Of a stretch of 64,000 nucleotides of DNA, positions 21,599 through 28,689 are shown one piece after another. The stretch is from Slackia faecicanis. Lineage in GTDB: Bacteria > Actinomycetota > Coriobacteriia > Coriobacteriales > Eggerthellaceae. Within the stretch, counting starts at the first letter, position 1, and every line of letters begins with the position of its first letter. The notes under the pieces were generated by a model that was not told the origin of the DNA, did not search any database, and saw nothing but the letters and a program-made list of their open reading frames with translations. The stretch lies in NCBI RefSeq assembly GCF_003725295.1, contig NZ_QICB01000002.1, positions 186,001 to 250,000 on the forward strand. Reading direction: 5' to 3'. The position numbers and the translations under genes are program-made.

Positions 21599-23866
21599 TT
21601 AGAAGCCGGCAAAGCGCGCCTGCCTGCGGGCCACCAGCTCGGCGGGGTCGAGGGCGCACAGCTCGTCGAGCTTGCGTTCCACATAGCGGCGCACCGCGTC
21701 GGCCGCGAGCACCGGGTTCTCGCTCGCCGTGCCCTCGCCTTCCTCGAGCACCGTGTCCACGATGCCCATCTCGAAGATCTCGTAGGCGTTCATACGCATG
21801 GCCGCCGCGGCCTCGGGCGCGCGCGAGCGGTCTTTCCACAGGATCGACGCGAAACCTTCGGGAGACAGCACCGAATACACCGCATGCTCCTGCATGGCCA
21901 CCGCGTCAGAAAGCGCGAGCGCGAGCGCGCCGCCCGAGCCGCCCTCGCCCACGATGACCGTCACCACGGGCACGGGCACACCTGCCAGATACGCCAGGTT
22001 CTCGGCGATCGCGTTGCCCTGGCCTCGCTCTTCGGCCTCTTTGCCGCAAAACGCGCCCTGCGTGTCCACCAGGCACACCGCGGGCAGGCCGAAGCGCTGC
22101 GCGAGGCGCAAGGCCCGCATGCTCTTGCGATAGCCCTCGGGCTGCGGGCACCCGAAATTGCGGCGGACGCGCTCGTCGAGCGTGGCGCCCTTTTCCTGCG
22201 CGATGATCACGGCGGGGCGGCCCGACACCCATCCCAGGCCCGTCACCACCGCCGCGTCGTCGGAAAACGCACGGTCGCCGTGCAGTTCGACGAATCCGTC
22301 CACCATGAACGACAGGTAGTGCAGCGCCGTGGGGCGATGCGTGTCGCGCGCGGCCTGGACGCTGCGCCACGCCGAGTTCGCGGAGGCGTCCGACGCGGCG
22401 CGGACATGCGATGCCGTGCGCGAAGCAGGCGCCAGGATGCGATGGGCGCGCAACGAGGCGCGGGCCGCATCCCACGCCTGCGCCGAAGGGACCGCGGACG
22501 TGCCGCGCTCTTCCATGACGCGCAGCTCGTGGGCCGAAGGCGCATCCTGCAGCGCGCGGGCCAGCGCGTCGGGGCCCGCCACGGCGCACGGCGCGCCTTT
22601 CGCGCCCGAGCCCAGCAGCGCCAACAGCGCGGCCACGGTGCAGCGCAGCGAGGCGCGGTCCACTACGGCGTCGATCAGCCCGTGCTCCAGGGCGAATTCG
22701 GCCGTTTGGAACTCGTCGGGCAGCGTTTCGCCCGTGGTGTCTTGGATCACACGGCGGCCGGCGAAGCCCACGAGCGCCCCCGGCTCGGCGAACACCACGT
22801 CGCCCTGCATGGCGAACGACGCGGTCACGCCGCCCGTGGTGGGGTCGGTGATCGCCGACAGGTACGCCAGTCCCGCATCGGCGTGACGGCGGATCGCGCA
22901 GGACACCTTCGCCATCTGCATGAGCGACACCAGGCCCTCCTGCATGCGCGCGCCGCCCGATGCGCAGAAGATCACGAGCGGCAGGCCTTCGTCGGTGGCG
23001 CGGTCGGCCGCGCGGGCGATGCGCTCGCCCACCACGCGGCCCATCGAGCCCATGAAAAACGCCGAATCCATCACGCAGGCCACGGCGGGCATGCCGGCGA
23101 TGCGGCCGCGCGCGCACGACACCGCCTCGGACAGGCGCGTTTTCAGGCGCGTGGAGGCGAGCTTTTCGGCATAGCCCGGAAACGCCAGCGGGTCGCCGCC
23201 TTCGTCGATGTCGTCGATCGGCTCGACCGTTCCCGCGTCGAACAGCAGGTCGAAGCGCTGGCGCGAGGTCATGCGGAAATGGCGGCCGCAGCGCGGGCAC
23301 GTTTCCTGCGCCGCGAACACCGCATGCGCGGCGAAGATGCCGCCGCACGACGGGCAGCGGCGCCACGACCGCTCGTCGACCGGGCGCACCAGGCCGGTGG
23401 CGCACGCGCACGAGCGCCAGGCGGGCGTCATGCCGCCGAACGCGCCCGCCACCACGCGGTCGGCATCCACCGCGTACACGCCGAGGCCTTCGCCGCGCGC
23501 CATGCCCACGAAATCGACGTCGGCGGCGAGCGGCGAATCCACCAGCAGCACAAGATCGGCGCCGGCCGACTGGGCGGCGGCGAGCACCAGGTAGGCGTCG
23601 TCGAACGAACCGCCGTCGGCCCGCTCGCCGATGCTCACGCACTGCTCGGCAAGCGACAGGCGCGGGCTTGCGGCCATGTCCTGCGTGTAAGCGACCGCCG
23701 TGCGCAGGCCCACCGACCTGACCGCCGCGGGCACTTCGTCGAAGGCATGGCGGCCGTCGACCACCAGCGCGCACGAGAACCCCTTGCGCGCCAGGTCGAA
23801 CAGACTCTCGCCCGCTGCGGCCCGGGCGTCCGGCATCACTATGTAATCGGGCTTTTTCCGACGCAT
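21599..23866 (-). CDS. accDA: Acetyl-CoA carboxylase carboxyltransferase beta-alpha fusion with a remnant biotin-carboxylase domain
   Basis: The 755 residues comprise three parts. Residues ~45-135 (GLRTAVAYTQD, SLAEQCVSIG, SFDDAYLVLAAAQSAGADLV, ADVDFVGMARGEG) align with the N-domain of biotin carboxylase AccC, but the PGYGFLSEN loop is lost and no ATP-grasp domain follows. Residues ~170-430 are AccD, with a Cys4 zinc finger (C171, C174, C190, C193) and crotonase-fold CASGGARMQEG and DPTTGGVTASFAM. Residues ~490-755 are AccA (HYLSFMVDGFVELHGDR, GEGGSGGALALAL, SVLSPEGFASILWKD). It would transfer carboxyl from carboxybiotin-BCCP to acetyl-CoA. TAAGGAG precedes the ATG at 23866, 9 bp after fabZ. 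accB and accC are absent here. Confidence 0.88.
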   Translation of the reverse strand: MRRKKPDYIVMPDARAAAGESLFDLARKGFSCALVVDGRHAFDEVPAAVRSVGLRTAVAYTQDMAASPRLSLAEQCVSIGERADGGSFDDAYLVLAAAQSAGADLVLLVDSPLAADVDFVGMARGEGLGVYAVDADRVVAGAFGGMTPAWRSCACATGLVRPVDERSWRRCPSCGGIFAAHAVFAAQETCPRCGRHFRMTSRQRFDLLFDAGTVEPIDDIDEGGDPLAFPGYAEKLASTRLKTRLSEAVSCARGRIAGMPAVACVMDSAFFMGSMGRVVGERIARAADRATDEGLPLVIFCASGGARMQEGLVSLMQMAKVSCAIRRHADAGLAYLSAITDPTTGGVTASFAMQGDVVFAEPGALVGFAGRRVIQDTTGETLPDEFQTAEFALEHGLIDAVVDRASLRCTVAALLALLGSGAKGAPCAVAGPDALARALQDAPSAHELRVMEERGTSAVPSAQAWDAARASLRAHRILAPASRTASHVRAASDASANSAWRSVQAARDTHRPTALHYLSFMVDGFVELHGDRAFSDDAAVVTGLGWVSGRPAVIIAQEKGATLDERVRRNFGCPQPEGYRKSMRALRLAQRFGLPAVCLVDTQGAFCGKEAEERGQGNAIAENLAYLAGVPVPVVTVIVGEGGSGGALALALSDAVAMQEHAVYSVLSPEGFASILWKDRSRAPEAAAAMRMNAYEIFEMGIVDTVLEEGEGTASENPVLAADAVRRYVERKLDELCALDPAELVARRQARFAGF

Positions 23867-23875
23867 CGAAACTCC

Positions 23876-24313
23876 TTAGGCCAAGACGTATTTCTGGACG
23901 GCCGACGCGGCAAGCCGGCCGTCGACGAGCGCCTCCACCTCGGCGACGCACATGCGCGACGACGACTTCACGATGCGCGCCTCCAGGCGCAGCGTGTCGC
24001 CCGGGCGCACCTGGCAGCGGAACTTCGCCTTATCGATGCCCGTCAGAAAGCCCACCTTGCCGCAGTCGTCGCCCGCCAGCAGCACGCAGCACGAAGCCGC
24101 CTGGGCAAGCGCCTCCATCACGATGACGCCCGGCAGCACCGGATGCTCGGGGAAATGACCCGCGAACAGCGGCAGGTCGGGATCGACGTCGAATTCGGCC
24201 TCGATACGGACGCCCGGCTCGCACGACAGGATGCGGCTCACCCAGACGAAGGGGTCGCGATGAGGCAGGATGGCCAGCACCGCATCGCGGCCGGCGGGAT
24301 ACGTCAGTTCCAT
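23876..24313 (-). CDS. fabZ: 3-hydroxyacyl-ACP dehydratase FabZ
   Basis: FabZ dehydrates 3-hydroxyacyl-ACP in the elongation cycle. The 145-residue hot-dog protein has the catalytic motif GHFPEHPVLPGVIVMEALAQ with His53 and Glu67. The ATG at 24313 follows AAGGAAGAAGG; the longer frame upstream is not supported. It is 9 bp before accDA and ~210 bp after fabF, a gap that holds a large hairpin where accB commonly sits in this type of cluster. Confidence 0.95.
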   Translation of the reverse strand: MELTYPAGRDAVLAILPHRDPFVWVSRILSCEPGVRIEAEFDVDPDLPLFAGHFPEHPVLPGVIVMEALAQAASCCVLLAGDDCGKVGFLTGIDKAKFRCQVRPGDTLRLEARIVKSSSRMCVAEVEALVDGRLAASAVQKYVLA

Positions 24314-24424
24314 GAAAGACCTTCTTCCTTGGTCGAGGATGCTATCGGGGCGCGCGGGCCGAACCTCGGCGGCAATGCGCCCCGGCCGCGCGGGCGCGCG
24401 CGGCGATATCGGGGGAAAGCGAAC

Positions 24425-24475
24425 GCGAGCGTCCGGCAGACGCCGCAAGGGAAACGCCGTCTGTCGGACGCTCGC
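24425..24475 (-). promoter_or_regulatory. Long hairpin between fabF and fabZ
   Basis: An 18-bp inverted repeat (24425-24442 with 24458-24475), all paired with one G-U, and a 15-base loop. No T-run follows on the minus strand, so it is more likely an mRNA processing or stability element, or a partial terminator, than a full stop. It sits in the only large gap of the fab operon. Confidence 0.6.
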
Positions 24476-24521: not shown

Positions 24522-25787
24522 CTAGCCTTCGAACGGCGCGATGGCGAGCGAAGCGTTGTGTCCGCCGAAGCCGAGCGAATTGCTGAGCGCCACGGCCTGC
24601 GGCCCCGTGCGCAGAAGCGAACCCGTCACCACGTTCACCGGGCAGGCGGGATCGACCTCGCGCGTACCCGCGGTGGGCGGCACCGTGCCGTTCGCCGCCG
24701 ACAGGGCGCACACGATCGCCTCGATGGCGCCCGCCGCGCCCATCATGTGGCCGACCGTTCCCTTCACCGAAGTCACGGGCGTCTGCGCGTCGGCGCCGAC
24801 CAGCGCCGCGAGCGCCGCGGCCTCCATGGCGTCGTTGGCCTTCGTGGACGTGCCGTGGGCGTTGAGATGCCCCACGTCGGACGGCTCGAAGCCGCCTTCG
24901 GCGAGCGCCGCGCGCATCGCGCGCACGGCCCCTTCGCCGCTCGGGTCGGGCGCGGTCATGTGGTAGGCGTCGCCCGTCGAGCCGAAGCCCGCCACCTCGG
25001 CGATGATATGCGCGCCGCGCGCAAGGGCGTGCTCGAACGATTCCAGCACGAGCGCGCCCGCGCCTTCGCCCGGCACGAAACCGCTGCGGTTCGCATCGAA
25101 CGGCATGGCCGACGCGGCCGGGTCGTCGGAGGTGCACAGCGCGCCCAGATTGCCGAAGCCCGCCAGGCATACCGGCGAAATGGACTCTTCGCTGCCGCCC
25201 GCCAACGCCGCGTCGGCGTAGCCGTGACGGATCAGGCGATAAGCCTCGCCCACGCAATGGGCGCCGGTAGCGCATGCGGTGACGATGCTCAGGCAATCGC
25301 CCTTCATACCATAGCGAATCGACAGGTTGCCGGCCGCCATGTTCTCTATCATCGTGGGAATGAACAGAGGGCTGACTTTCTTGGGGCCGCGCTCGTGCAA
25401 AGCGGCGCAAGCCGATTCGAACTCGAGCAGGCCGCCGATGCCGCTGCCCCACACGCAGGCCACGCGCGTCGGGTCTTCGTCCTCCATCGACAGGCCGCTT
25501 TCGGCCATGGCCTCGTCGGCGGCCACGATGGCGTACTGGACGAACGGGGCGAAGCGGCGCGCCTCTTTTTTCGACAGGCCGCACGCAACCGGGTCGAACG
25601 AGGGAATTTCGGCCGCCAGCGTGGCGGGATAGCCCTCGGTGCCGAAGCGTGCGATCGGCGCGATGCAGCTGCGGCCCTCGTTCACCGCGTCCATCAGAGC
25701 GTCCACGCCCACGCCCGCGGGCGAAAGCGCGCCCGTGCCGGTGATGGCCACGCGATGCGTGCCGTCGGGCTTTCGAGTATCCGTCAT
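24522..25787 (-). CDS. fabF: Beta-ketoacyl-ACP synthase II
   Basis: FabF condenses malonyl-ACP with acyl-ACP. The 421-residue thiolase-fold enzyme shows the Cys-His-His triad: SIVTACATGAH (Cys172), LNAHGTST and KGTVGHMMGAAG, plus the GFGGHNASL C-terminus. The ATG at 25787 overlaps the fabG stop in an ATGA junction, so translation is coupled. No fabH-type initiating synthase is in the window. Confidence 0.96.
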   Translation of the reverse strand: MTDTRKPDGTHRVAITGTGALSPAGVGVDALMDAVNEGRSCIAPIARFGTEGYPATLAAEIPSFDPVACGLSKKEARRFAPFVQYAIVAADEAMAESGLSMEDEDPTRVACVWGSGIGGLLEFESACAALHERGPKKVSPLFIPTMIENMAAGNLSIRYGMKGDCLSIVTACATGAHCVGEAYRLIRHGYADAALAGGSEESISPVCLAGFGNLGALCTSDDPAASAMPFDANRSGFVPGEGAGALVLESFEHALARGAHIIAEVAGFGSTGDAYHMTAPDPSGEGAVRAMRAALAEGGFEPSDVGHLNAHGTSTKANDAMEAAALAALVGADAQTPVTSVKGTVGHMMGAAGAIEAIVCALSAANGTVPPTAGTREVDPACPVNVVTGSLLRTGPQAVALSNSLGFGGHNASLAIAPFEG

Positions 25788-26545
25788 AGCGACATTCCTC
25801 CATCCACGCCGATGACCTGGCCGGTCACGTAACTTGCCTGCTCGCTCGCGAGAAACGCCGCCACGGCGGCCACTTCCTCGGGCCTTCCCATGCGCTTGGA
25901 CGCCACGCGCTCGAGCGCCGCATCCTTCGCGCGATCGCTCATGGCGCCGGTCATGTCGGTTTCCACGAGTCCGGGAGCCACGGCGTTCACCGTGACATTG
26001 CGCGAGGCCACCTCCATGGCCAGCGAACGGGTCAGACCGATGATGCCCGCCTTCGACGCGGCGTAATTCGCCTGACCCGCGTTGCCACGCACGCCCACGA
26101 TGCTGCTCATGTTGACGATGCGGCCGAAGCGGGCCTTCGCCATGCGCCCCACCGCCGCGCGGCAGCAGTTGTACGTGCCTTTGAGATTCACGGCCAGCAC
26201 GCGGTCGAAATCGTCTTCTTTCATACGCATCATCAGGCCGTCTTTGGTGATACCCGCGTTGTTCACCAGCACGTCCACGCCGCCGAAGCGCTCGGCCGCC
26301 TCCGCGATCAAGGCCTCGGCCTGCTCGGACGACGAAACGTCGGCGCGGGCGGCATACGCCTGCACGCCGTATGCGCGCTCCAGCTCGCGCGCCAGGTCTT
26401 CGGCGGCCTGTTCGCTGGAAGGGCTCGCGTAGTTCACGGCCACATCCATGCCGGCCGCCGCGAGGCTGCGCGCCACGGCGGCGCCGATGCCGCGCGAGGC
26501 GCCCGTCACCACGGCATGACGGCGGACGGTTTGCGTCTGTGCCAT
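25784..26545 (-). CDS. fabG: 3-oxoacyl-ACP reductase
   Basis: FabG reduces 3-oxoacyl-ACP with NADPH. The 253-residue short-chain dehydrogenase has the cofactor motif VTGASRGIGAAVARSL, the NNAGIT motif and the Ser-Tyr-Lys triad (NMSSIVGV, YAASKAG). The ATG at 26545 follows AAAGGA, 11 bp after the fabD stop; an in-frame GTG at 26560 overlapping that stop is a weaker alternative. It is coupled to fabF downstream. Confidence 0.96.
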   Translation of the reverse strand: MAQTQTVRRHAVVTGASRGIGAAVARSLAAAGMDVAVNYASPSSEQAAEDLARELERAYGVQAYAARADVSSSEQAEALIAEAAERFGGVDVLVNNAGITKDGLMMRMKEDDFDRVLAVNLKGTYNCCRAAVGRMAKARFGRIVNMSSIVGVRGNAGQANYAASKAGIIGLTRSLAMEVASRNVTVNAVAPGLVETDMTGAMSDRAKDAALERVASKRMGRPEEVAAVAAFLASEQASYVTGQVIGVDGGMSL

Positions 26546-26556
26546 CGGAATTCCTT

Positions 26557-27486
26557 TCACTGACAGGCCGCAGCGCGCTGCGATGCGAGCGCGCGGGCGT
26601 CTTCCATCGATTCGACCCCGTAGCGGGCCGCCTCTTTATGCGTCCTGCGCACCAGGCCGCGCAGCACCGCGCCGCTGCCGCATTCGGCGTAGGCGTCCAC
26701 GCCCGAAGCCTGCAGGCATGCGACGCTGCGGTCGAACAGCACGGGCGACGTGACCTGACGCACCATGTGCTCGGCCGCGTCGGCGGCGCGAAGCGGGCGC
26801 GCGTCTACGTTGCAGATCAGCGGGATGGGCGGCTCGGCGAAGCGCACGCCCTGCAAGAATGTCTCCAGCTCGTCGGCGGCATCCTGCATGAGCGGGCTGT
26901 GGAAAGCGCCTGCCACGGCAAGCATGCTCGCCCGGCGGCCGGGTCCGTGCCACGCCTCGGCCGCACGGACGACCGCATCGCGCTCGCCCGAGACCACGAT
27001 CTGGCCGGGAGCGTTGTAGTTGGCGGCCACGAGCACCGCGCCCTGTGCGACGTCCGCGATCAGTGCGGCGACCGATTCGTCGCTCGCCCCCATGAGCGCG
27101 CACATGGCGCCCGGGGCGGCAGCGGCGGCTTCGGCCATGGCGTGCGCACGGACCGAACACAGGGCGAACGTGTCTTCGAGCGTCAGCATGCCCGCCACGT
27201 TGAGCGCGGCCACCTGACCGAGCGAAAAGCCCGCCACGGCATGGGCCGATGCGCCTTCGAGCTCGAGCGCGCGGGCGGCCGCGATCGAGGCGGCGCACAA
27301 GGCCGGCTGCACCTTCAGCGCATCGGCCAAGGCCGCTTCGTCGGAGCAGGCCGCACGCACGTCGAACCCGCACATATCAGAAGCCGCCTCGAACACCTCG
27401 TCGAATTCGGGACGGCCCGAAAACGCCGCGCCCATGCCGGGTTTCTGAGAACCCTGGCCGCTGCACAGGATGGCGAGTTTACCCAC
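26557..27486 (-). CDS. fabD: Malonyl-CoA:ACP transacylase
   Basis: FabD moves malonyl from CoA to ACP. The 309-residue protein has the nucleophile motif AGFSLGQ (Ser88), CSGQGSQ near the N-terminus, and the catalytic His in AFHSPLM. It starts with GTG (27486) inside the end of fabK, an 8-bp overlap that implies translational coupling. C-terminal region is somewhat divergent but full length. Confidence 0.95.
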   Translation of the reverse strand: MGKLAILCSGQGSQKPGMGAAFSGRPEFDEVFEAASDMCGFDVRAACSDEAALADALKVQPALCAASIAAARALELEGASAHAVAGFSLGQVAALNVAGMLTLEDTFALCSVRAHAMAEAAAAAPGAMCALMGASDESVAALIADVAQGAVLVAANYNAPGQIVVSGERDAVVRAAEAWHGPGRRASMLAVAGAFHSPLMQDAADELETFLQGVRFAEPPIPLICNVDARPLRAADAAEHMVRQVTSPVLFDRSVACLQASGVDAYAECGSGAVLRGLVRRTHKEAARYGVESMEDARALASQRAAACQ

Positions 27487-28459
27487 GAGCCTCGTCTCCT
27501 TCGCACGAATCGCCGATCAGCGCCGCAGCCGCACGCGCGCTCGCATCGCCTGCCGCGAAGCCTGCGGAAAGCTCACGCACCGCATCAGCCGCGCTGCCGC
27601 GCGTCTTCACCATGCCTGCCGCCTGACCTGCCATGAACGAGCCGCCCTCGGCGTCGCCTTCGACGGCGCGGCGCAGCGACCCTGCATACATTCCCTCGAG
27701 CGCCGCGATATCGTCCACGGTGCGCTCGAGCGTCTTCATCGAACGCGACCAGGGGTTTTTCAGACCGCGCACGGGGTGTCCCGTCACGCGCCCGGTCACG
27801 ATGGTGTCGGAATCTTTGGCGCGCAGCACCTTTTCCTTATAGGTTTCGGACACGCGGCATTCCTCCACCGTGAGAAACCTCGTGCCCGCCTGGACGCCTT
27901 CGGCGCCCAGAACGCGTGCGGCCGCAGCCGTGCGGGCGTCGGCGATGCCGCCCGCCGCGATCACCGGGATGCCCACCGCGTCGCGGATCTGCGGCACGAG
28001 CGCCATCGTGGCGGTCTCGCCGATATGGCCGCCGGCCTCGCAGCCTTCGGCCACCACCGCATCGGCGCCCAGGCGCTCCATGCGGGCCGCCTGGGCCGTT
28101 TGCGCCACCACCGGCACCACCTTCGCGCCCGCCTCTTTCCAGCGCTCGATGAACCGCGACGGGCTTCCCGCGCCCGTCGTGATCGCGTCGACGCGCAGGC
28201 GCGCCAGAAGGTCGGCGACGCGTTCGACGTCGGGGTTCATCATCATGACGTTGGCGCCCACAGGCGCGCCCGGCGCCAGAGAGCGGGCGATCAGAATCTG
28301 ATCCTCGATCCAGGAAAGCGGCGCCGCGCCGCATGCCACGATGCCCAGGCCGCCCGCGGCCGACACCGCGCCCGCGAGCGTGCCGTCGGCCACCCACGCC
28401 ATGCCGCCCTGGATCACCGGATGTTCGATCCCGAATAGCTCGGTCACACGCGTTTCCAT
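27479..28459 (-). CDS. fabK: Enoyl-ACP reductase II, FMN-dependent
   Basis: FabK is the flavin-dependent alternative to FabI that reduces trans-2-enoyl-ACP with NAD(P)H. The 326-residue TIM barrel of the nitronate monooxygenase/FabK family begins TELFGIEHPVIQGGMAWVAD and has EGCEAGGHIGE (catalytic His), VIAAGGIADARTAAAARVLGAEGVQ phosphate-binding motifs and TRFLTVEECRV. AGGAA lies before the ATG at 28459, 8 bp after acpP. The FabK choice is typical of Firmicute-like clusters under FabT control. Confidence 0.93.
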   Translation of the reverse strand: METRVTELFGIEHPVIQGGMAWVADGTLAGAVSAAGGLGIVACGAAPLSWIEDQILIARSLAPGAPVGANVMMMNPDVERVADLLARLRVDAITTGAGSPSRFIERWKEAGAKVVPVVAQTAQAARMERLGADAVVAEGCEAGGHIGETATMALVPQIRDAVGIPVIAAGGIADARTAAAARVLGAEGVQAGTRFLTVEECRVSETYKEKVLRAKDSDTIVTGRVTGHPVRGLKNPWSRSMKTLERTVDDIAALEGMYAGSLRRAVEGDAEGGSFMAGQAAGMVKTRGSAADAVRELSAGFAAGDASARAAAALIGDSCEGDEARG

Positions 28460-28467
28460 GCGCGTTC

Positions 28468-28689
28468 CTAACGCAGCGACTCGATGTAGTCGACCAGGCT
28501 GCCCACCGTGGTCAGGCCGTCGGGCTCGCCGAACTCGATGTCGCAGCGGTCCTCCAGGTCGCACACCAGCTCGACCATGTCGAGCGAATCCACGCCGAGG
28601 GTCTCGAAGGTAGAATCGGCGCTCACATCGGCGGGGTCGATGTCCAGGTTGTCCTGCAGGACGGATTTCACGATTTCGATGGTCTCCAT
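28468..28689 (-). CDS. acpP: Acyl carrier protein
   Basis: The 73-residue acidic helical carrier shuttles acyl chains through the fatty acid enzymes. The phosphopantetheine attachment site is Ser35 in GVDSLDMVE. AAAGG precedes the ATG at 28689. It is the first gene of the fab operon after a terminator and a FabT-like site. Confidence 0.96.
   Translation of the reverse strand: METIEIVKSVLQDNLDIDPADVSADSTFETLGVDSLDMVELVCDLEDRCDIEFGEPDGLTTVGSLVDYIESLR

Follow-up and report, generated by a model that had tools for sequence, protein, structure and literature searches.

The AccD-AccA carboxyltransferase encoded in a 64,000-nucleotide stretch of Slackia faecicanis DNA (the window) carries an N-terminal extension, to be referred to as the stub, that appears to be a non-catalytic biotin carboxylase (BC) N-domain, left by the accC gene of the same operon and repurposed. 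The enzyme would share a remote BC and a biotin carrier with pyruvate carboxylation, and the stub would dock them. The chances that this reading holds as a whole, with sharing and docking included, are about even.

Layout and identity of the fusion protein

The fusion gene is located at positions 21599–23866 on the minus strand and encodes a protein of 755 residues (P0001), as defined by its open reading frame, translation and domain matches. A plus-strand reading of this segment was rejected. An earlier note on this DNA had recognized an AccD-AccA fusion here without naming the strand, and the domain matches bear it out. AccD, the carboxyltransferase β component, covers residues 162–418 (22613–23383, minus strand, as for all parts of the gene). 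It scores 322.8 bits with TIGR00515 (NCBIfam cut-off 317.45), and the four cysteines of its zinc ribbon, Cys171, Cys174, Cys190 and Cys193, are invariant (alignment A4). AccA, the α component, covers residues 498–753 (21608–22375). It matches PF03255 (Pfam) with an E value of 4.7e-101 and NF041504 with a score of 313.3, above the cut-off of 300; TIGR00513 and NF004344 fall under theirs. The linker between the two (residues 419–497; 22376–22612) is mostly predicted with low confidence, with pLDDT values of 22–30 across most of residues 441–490 in the full-length AF2 model. This model is poor overall (mean pLDDT 61) and is uninformative on the placement of the stub relative to AccD-AccA. A cysteine conserved in the family, Cys153 or Cys155 by alignment (23402–23410), is located between the stub and the zinc ribbon.

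The N-terminal region begins with a leader (residues 1–29; 23780–23866) that varies in length and sequence from species to species and has low pLDDT values at its start (46–54 for residues 1–20). The stub follows, at residues 30–147 (23426–23779), as assigned from sequence, structure, alignment columns and selection. Its BC-alignable core, residues 30–133, aligns without gaps with residues 2–105 of E. coli AccC. The earlier note had placed a BC N-domain at residues ~45–135; the identity holds, and the domain starts earlier, at ~30. That note had also seen no ATP-grasp domain, and the Pfam search of P0001 agrees, with no match to either CPSase_L_D2 (ATP-grasp) or Biotin_carb_C.

The copy in the window matches PF00289 (Biotin_carb_N) over residues 47–108 with an E value of 0.0017 and 21.7 bits, under the Pfam cut-off of 25.5, and therefore this copy by itself would leave the identity unsettled. 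Homologues were collected within the family to give alignment A1, with 20 extension domains. PF00289 matches each of the 20 individually, the best with an E value of 6.6e-12. With the A1 profile searched against all PDB chains, the 60 matches listed are all biotin-dependent carboxylases (best E value 1.8e-14), and the top match, 9eb7, aligns its residues 62–168 with profile positions 2–108. The earlier note had proposed such a profile search as a check on itself; the outcome is a significant match to the BC N-domain, not the lack of one that it had named as speaking against its idea.

The predicted structure gives the same picture. The AF2 model of residues 1–205 has core pLDDT values mostly of 71–91 and shows a pre-ATP-grasp (Rossmann-like) fold, with strands and helices alternating in the order of the BC N-domain. 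The best 50 Foldseek matches in the PDB are all biotin-dependent carboxylases, including urea carboxylase/amidolyase, and VIA-align superposes the model on Campylobacter biotin carboxylase (3ouz) with a Z score of 15.1 and an rmsd of 1.9 across 116 residues. The structural alignments reach residue ~308 of the BC chain, whereas the sequence match of the stub stops near 105. Because the PF00289, PDB profile, Foldseek and VIA-align matches agree, the extension is almost certainly a BC N-domain.

The stub shares with the N-domain of AccC (PF00289) the entire fold and the hydrophobic core. On the other hand, the fusion lacks the ATP-grasp and C-terminal domains of a complete AccC (TIGR00514), as well as the HPGYGF loop and other BC-invariant residues, and it has a conserved motif of its own. 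These changes were located by comparing the columns of 20 stubs with those of 16 biotin carboxylases (E. coli AccC numbering). Core positions retained in the stubs are Leu6, Ala14, Ala20, Ala45, Cys50, Gly52, Ala70, Phe91 and Gly114, and also Gly25, Val49 and Ala75. The HPGYGF stretch (residues 79–84), which faces biotin in a true biotin carboxylase, is kept in none of the 20 stubs. In the NRGE motif, Asn9 is likewise absent from all of them and Glu12 is found in one. The stubs have instead family-specific conserved stretches, such as LL-x-D-[ES]-x-LAE. Judged from its sequence, the stub cannot be catalytic.

Origin and retention of the stub in the fab operon

The fusion gene closes a cluster of fatty acid synthesis genes, all on the minus strand. 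Directly upstream, across a gap of 9 bases, is fabZ (23876–24448; PF07977), followed by fabF (24522–25787; PF00109/PF02801) and then by fabG, fabD, fabK and acpP (25784–28689; domain matches), in this order away from the fusion. The order acpP-fabK-fabD-fabG-fabF-fabZ-accD-accA given in the earlier note, with accB, accC and fabH absent from the cluster, is thus confirmed by the domain matches. A search with TIGR00747 finds no fabH in the window genome or in its congeners G105, G103 and G109, and one in G053; the rest of the cluster in the window genome is intact notwithstanding.

In the relatives represented by loci L141–L143 and L147, which we tentatively take to be Collinsella-like, Atopobiaceae-like and other, the cluster reads acpP-fabK-fabD-fabG-fabF-accB-fabZ-accC-accD, then accA. 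In the extended loci (the window, L123, L124, L126, L145, L146, L149, L152, L156 and L157), it reads fabF-fabZ-[stub-accD-accA]. The stub occupies the slot of accC, between fabZ and accD, and the place of accB between fabF and fabZ is empty here. Across a sample of 52 genomes, AccD reading frames of about 750–1000 residues never adjoin accC and short ones always do. Close relatives with a canonical accC have AccD-AccA fusions of 573–607 residues, without the extension. Since the extension sits in the vacated accC slot, it is very likely derived from the operon accC. The joining of the start of accC to accD, as the earlier note had it, is borne out by this synteny, by a single origin on the AccD tree (see below) and by the BC N-domain seen in sequence and predicted fold. 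No extension was found in lineages that never had accC beside accD, which that note had regarded as the other observation to count against it.

The extended proteins form one clade in the AccD tree (97/96), in which the trait changes once. In a tree of the domain itself (111 columns), the stub is on a long branch and its source among the biotin carboxylases is unplaced. Profile scores of the stub are higher with AccC of the extra accB-accC pairs (see below) and of the operons than with AccC linked to pyruvate carboxylase; with a full range of 34–54 bits, this lean is only suggestive. A genome from the same genus as the window (locus L144, G101:C1:134000–148000) lacks the stub and has fabF-accB-fabZ-accC-accD-accA in the canonical order. 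In the trees, the AccD and AccC of this cluster fall among operon types from other families, which would fit a replacement of the cluster.

A search with the single sequence matched 69 of 138 genomes of the family and 29 of its 48 genera, a few of these being plain biotin carboxylase hits, and the A1 profile matched more genomes. Some AccD-AccA genes, those of G011 and G100 among them, were missed by the profile, with the domain visible by eye. Every long AccD-AccA fusion examined in the Eggerthellaceae has the stub, in about 30 genera. Outside this family it occurs in two further families of the order, with one genus in each (G281–G284 and G354–G355), and nowhere else in the phylum sample, where the remaining hits resemble true biotin carboxylases by the length of their reading frames. 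A contig scan with a 10-row alignment gave 18 named loci, and the names recorded among the relatives include Eggerthella sinensis, Rubneribacter, Gordonibacter, Enteroscipio and Ellagibacter. One contig (G087:C1:580303–583910) has two equal-scoring stub copies 3.2 kb apart, in reading frames of 932 and 349 residues, from either a duplication or an assembly error.

The ratio of nonsynonymous to synonymous changes (ω) was computed for nine pairs of genes. For close pairs, ω of the stub is 0.07 (window and G105), 0.03 (G109 and G099), 0.12–0.27 (Eggerthella pairs) and 0.16 (Gordonibacter pair), and that of AccD in the same close pairs is 0.04–0.19. More distant pairs give 0.30–0.42 for the stub. 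In most pairs the stub is faster than AccD, with an ω roughly 0.5 to 3 times that of AccD. The leader has ω values of 0.27–0.57 in seven pairs and 0.07 in one. By these values, the stub evolves under purifying selection, and it is highly probable that it is functional. The earlier note had called the domain worn, and this description does not stand: ω is 0.03–0.27 in close pairs, every long fusion examined in the family has the domain, and the losses are confined to the biotin-facing and NRGE motifs. A decaying remnant private to this genome is rejected by the distribution across the family together with dN/dS.

Two other accounts of the stub itself were considered. It could be a Rossmann-like or other pre-ATP-grasp domain of no BC ancestry, for which the sub-threshold Pfam score of the window copy would speak. 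However, PF00289 matches in 20 of 20 family members, the 60 PDB matches listed and the best 50 Foldseek matches are all biotin-dependent carboxylases, and the extension is placed exactly in the accC slot; this account has almost no probability left, and we count it as already refuted by the profile, PDB, Foldseek and slot evidence. It could also be a passenger caught by the deletion and persisting only through the need for a start codon and a linker. The faster evolution of the stub relative to AccD in most pairs would fit a passenger, as would its drift past profile detection in some genera (G011 and G100), but the low ω in close pairs, the lack of an internal stop in any AccD-AccA copy listed, and the hydrophobic core and several invariant positions retained over ~30 genera all argue for constraint. 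Moreover, the leader ahead of the stub varies more freely in most pairs, and a passenger is therefore very unlikely. For a stub derived from accC and functional, the following history is proposed. In an ancestor of the Eggerthellaceae, the fab operon would have lost accB and the body of accC, whose start would have remained, fused in frame to accD. As the sequences show, the stub has since retained the fold, shed the HPGYG loop and acquired a conserved surface of its own, and selection has maintained it.

The biotin carboxylase and carrier probably available to AccD-AccA

The earlier note had also suggested a genome search for accB, accC and pyruvate carboxylase genes. In the window genome (G000; 2.0 Mb in 20 contigs, 97.7% complete), this search finds one Biotin_carb_C and one Biotin_lipoyl domain, both just to the left of the window on the same contig. 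The first belongs to AccC (G000:C2:182764–184113), which scores over the TIGR00514 cut-off. The second belongs to a PycB::AccB fusion of 624 residues (G000:C2:184117–185991), with residues 466–613 matching the AccB model. This match to TIGR00531 has 151 bits over a cut-off of 115.2 and covers model positions 1–155 of 156. The gap between the pycB-accC operon and accD-accA is about 22 kb (21.6 kb). A genome-wide loss of accB and accC is thus rejected.

The AccB part of PycB includes the motif of AccB N-termini, an Ala/Pro linker, the biotin site EAMKLMN and an insert as long as the E. coli thumb. The thumb corresponds to residues 94–102 of E. coli AccB (PMC10863985); the biotin carrier part of pyruvate carboxylase 5KS8, among others, reportedly lacks it (PMC11926652). 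Fusions of PycB with a complete, thumb-bearing AccB are widespread in the order, also in genomes without the stub (L003:8117–9991, L066, L067, L159 and L160). In the BC tree, the AccC of the window genome joins the pyruvate-carboxylase-linked enzymes of relatives (a clade of six, 100/99), separate from both the AccC of the operons and a third group, which is located beside a stand-alone accB (in G053 and others).

This genome therefore has one BC, one carrier and two carboxyltransferases, and AccD-AccA is the only gene found in it for a CoA carboxyltransferase. With a single BC and a single carrier for both, acetyl-CoA and pyruvate carboxylation probably share them, as far as gene content tells. 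AccC would charge the AccB tail of PycB, and the carboxybiotin on this tail would serve two active sites, that of PycB for pyruvate and that of AccD-AccA for acetyl-CoA. Malonyl-CoA synthesis would in this way borrow carboxybiotin made by the remote AccC on the PycB carrier. At 97.7% completeness and in 20 contigs, an accB or accC could have been missed here, though this is not likely in 31 genomes.

The 31 genomes are from a set of 58 in the family that are at least 90% complete and have the extension by profile (counts combined by hand). One BC is found in 31 of them, two or more in 26, and none in one. The carrier in the 31 single-BC genomes is of the PycB type, with ~623–690 residues (the reading frame of G006 is cut at a contig end), and four of these genomes also hold a stray biotin domain of 74–82 residues. 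The state of one or two BCs changes at least five times on the AccD tree, and therefore the extra pair has been repeatedly lost or gained, with the stub staying. The genome without any BC (G022, 98% complete) has the stub on AccD-AccA and only a weak biotin-domain match, possibly owing to assembly gaps.

The extra accB-accC pair is present in G027, G037 and G137 without a recognizable AccD. The pair therefore need not be dedicated to AccD-AccA, and in these genomes it may serve another carboxyltransferase. Seven genomes (G106, G027, G034, G058, G081, G091 and G133) have no AccD match, yet have a PycB-type carrier and a BC; they may have lost fatty acid synthesis and kept the pyruvate carboxylase operon.

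Candidate roles of the stub

As the sole BC is remote and of the pyruvate carboxylase group, docking to it, as raised in the earlier note, is plausible, and docking of BC or its carrier protein (BCCP) is a tentative assignment, the likeliest of the roles considered, with a somewhat less than even chance of being the function of the stub. The stub would hold the shared unit of AccC and the PycB AccB tail near the active site of AccD-AccA, and replace a contact once made by the operon-encoded AccC. A more specific form of docking is improbable as yet: the stub may be a pseudo-subunit of BC, binding AccC, or else the AccB part of PycB, as a BC partner would, and in about half of the Eggerthellaceae it may thereby set how much of a single BC goes to pyruvate carboxylation and how much to fatty acid synthesis.

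Docking has as its main competitor a role inside the carboxyltransferase, in which the stub would pack against the zinc ribbon or a second AccD-AccA, stabilizing or regulating the oligomer, with no contact to AccC or the carrier. The extension is also found in the 26 genomes with an extra BC and is therefore not specific to sharing. Its presence there is consistent with docking as well as with an internal role, and the latter draws support from its occurrence in both kinds of genomes, from family-specific conserved residues, among them a cysteine (Cys153 or Cys155) in the segment leading to the zinc ribbon, and from the loss of many residues that true biotin carboxylases conserve. However, close relatives with a canonical accC have an AccD without the extension, in the fusions of 573–607 residues, and the extension is found solely where accC has left its slot ahead of accD; an internal role is rather unlikely on balance. 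It is also conceivable that the single-BC genomes do not share at all, with AccD-AccA idle or working with a carrier and a carboxylase missed by the profiles, and with fatty acids imported. The seven relatives without an AccD match and the lack of a fabH match in the window genome are in line with this. In comparison, the remaining fab cluster is intact here, AccD-AccA is strongly constrained, and the same type of carrier recurs in the 31 single-BC genomes, being, where read, a thumb-bearing AccB (ACC type). The absence of sharing thus has only a small probability.

The enzyme differs from known systems in several respects. The heteromeric ACC (AccA, AccB, AccC and AccD; E. coli 8uxz/8uz2) has the same AccD and AccA parts and zinc ribbon, and an AccB-type carrier and AccC are also present in this genome. 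Here, however, a single chain comprises AccD and AccA behind a BC N-domain, the AccB part is joined to PycB, and accC is located beside pycB. In actinobacterial acyl-CoA carboxylases of the AccA3 type, one BC and carrier serve more than one carboxyltransferase. In those enzymes a single polypeptide combines BC with BCCP, and the carboxyltransferases act on CoA substrates, whereas in this genome BC is a protein of its own and the pyruvate carboxyltransferase bears the carrier as a fused part. The present case resembles two-subunit pyruvate carboxylase (PycA/PycB) and oxaloacetate decarboxylase α in having a PycB with a biotin domain beside a BC; it differs in that the biotin part amounts to an entire AccB, N-terminal motif, linker and thumb included. 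Unusual fusions of ACC parts are known from the BC-BCCP of Chloroflexus aurantiacus (PMC11077971) and the AccADCB multifunctional enzyme (PDB 9kkm). These join working domains, unlike the non-working BC fragment on the carboxyltransferase described here. Searches in a library of 5.39 million open papers gave no description of the extension or of sharing between pyruvate carboxylase and ACC. The parts are known and the arrangement is new.

The stub offers an example of an enzyme fragment kept and refitted once its gene broke, in a family of bacteria often found in the gut. The prediction that follows is that, in many Eggerthellaceae, one biotin carboxylase and one carrier would supply both oxaloacetate and malonyl-CoA.
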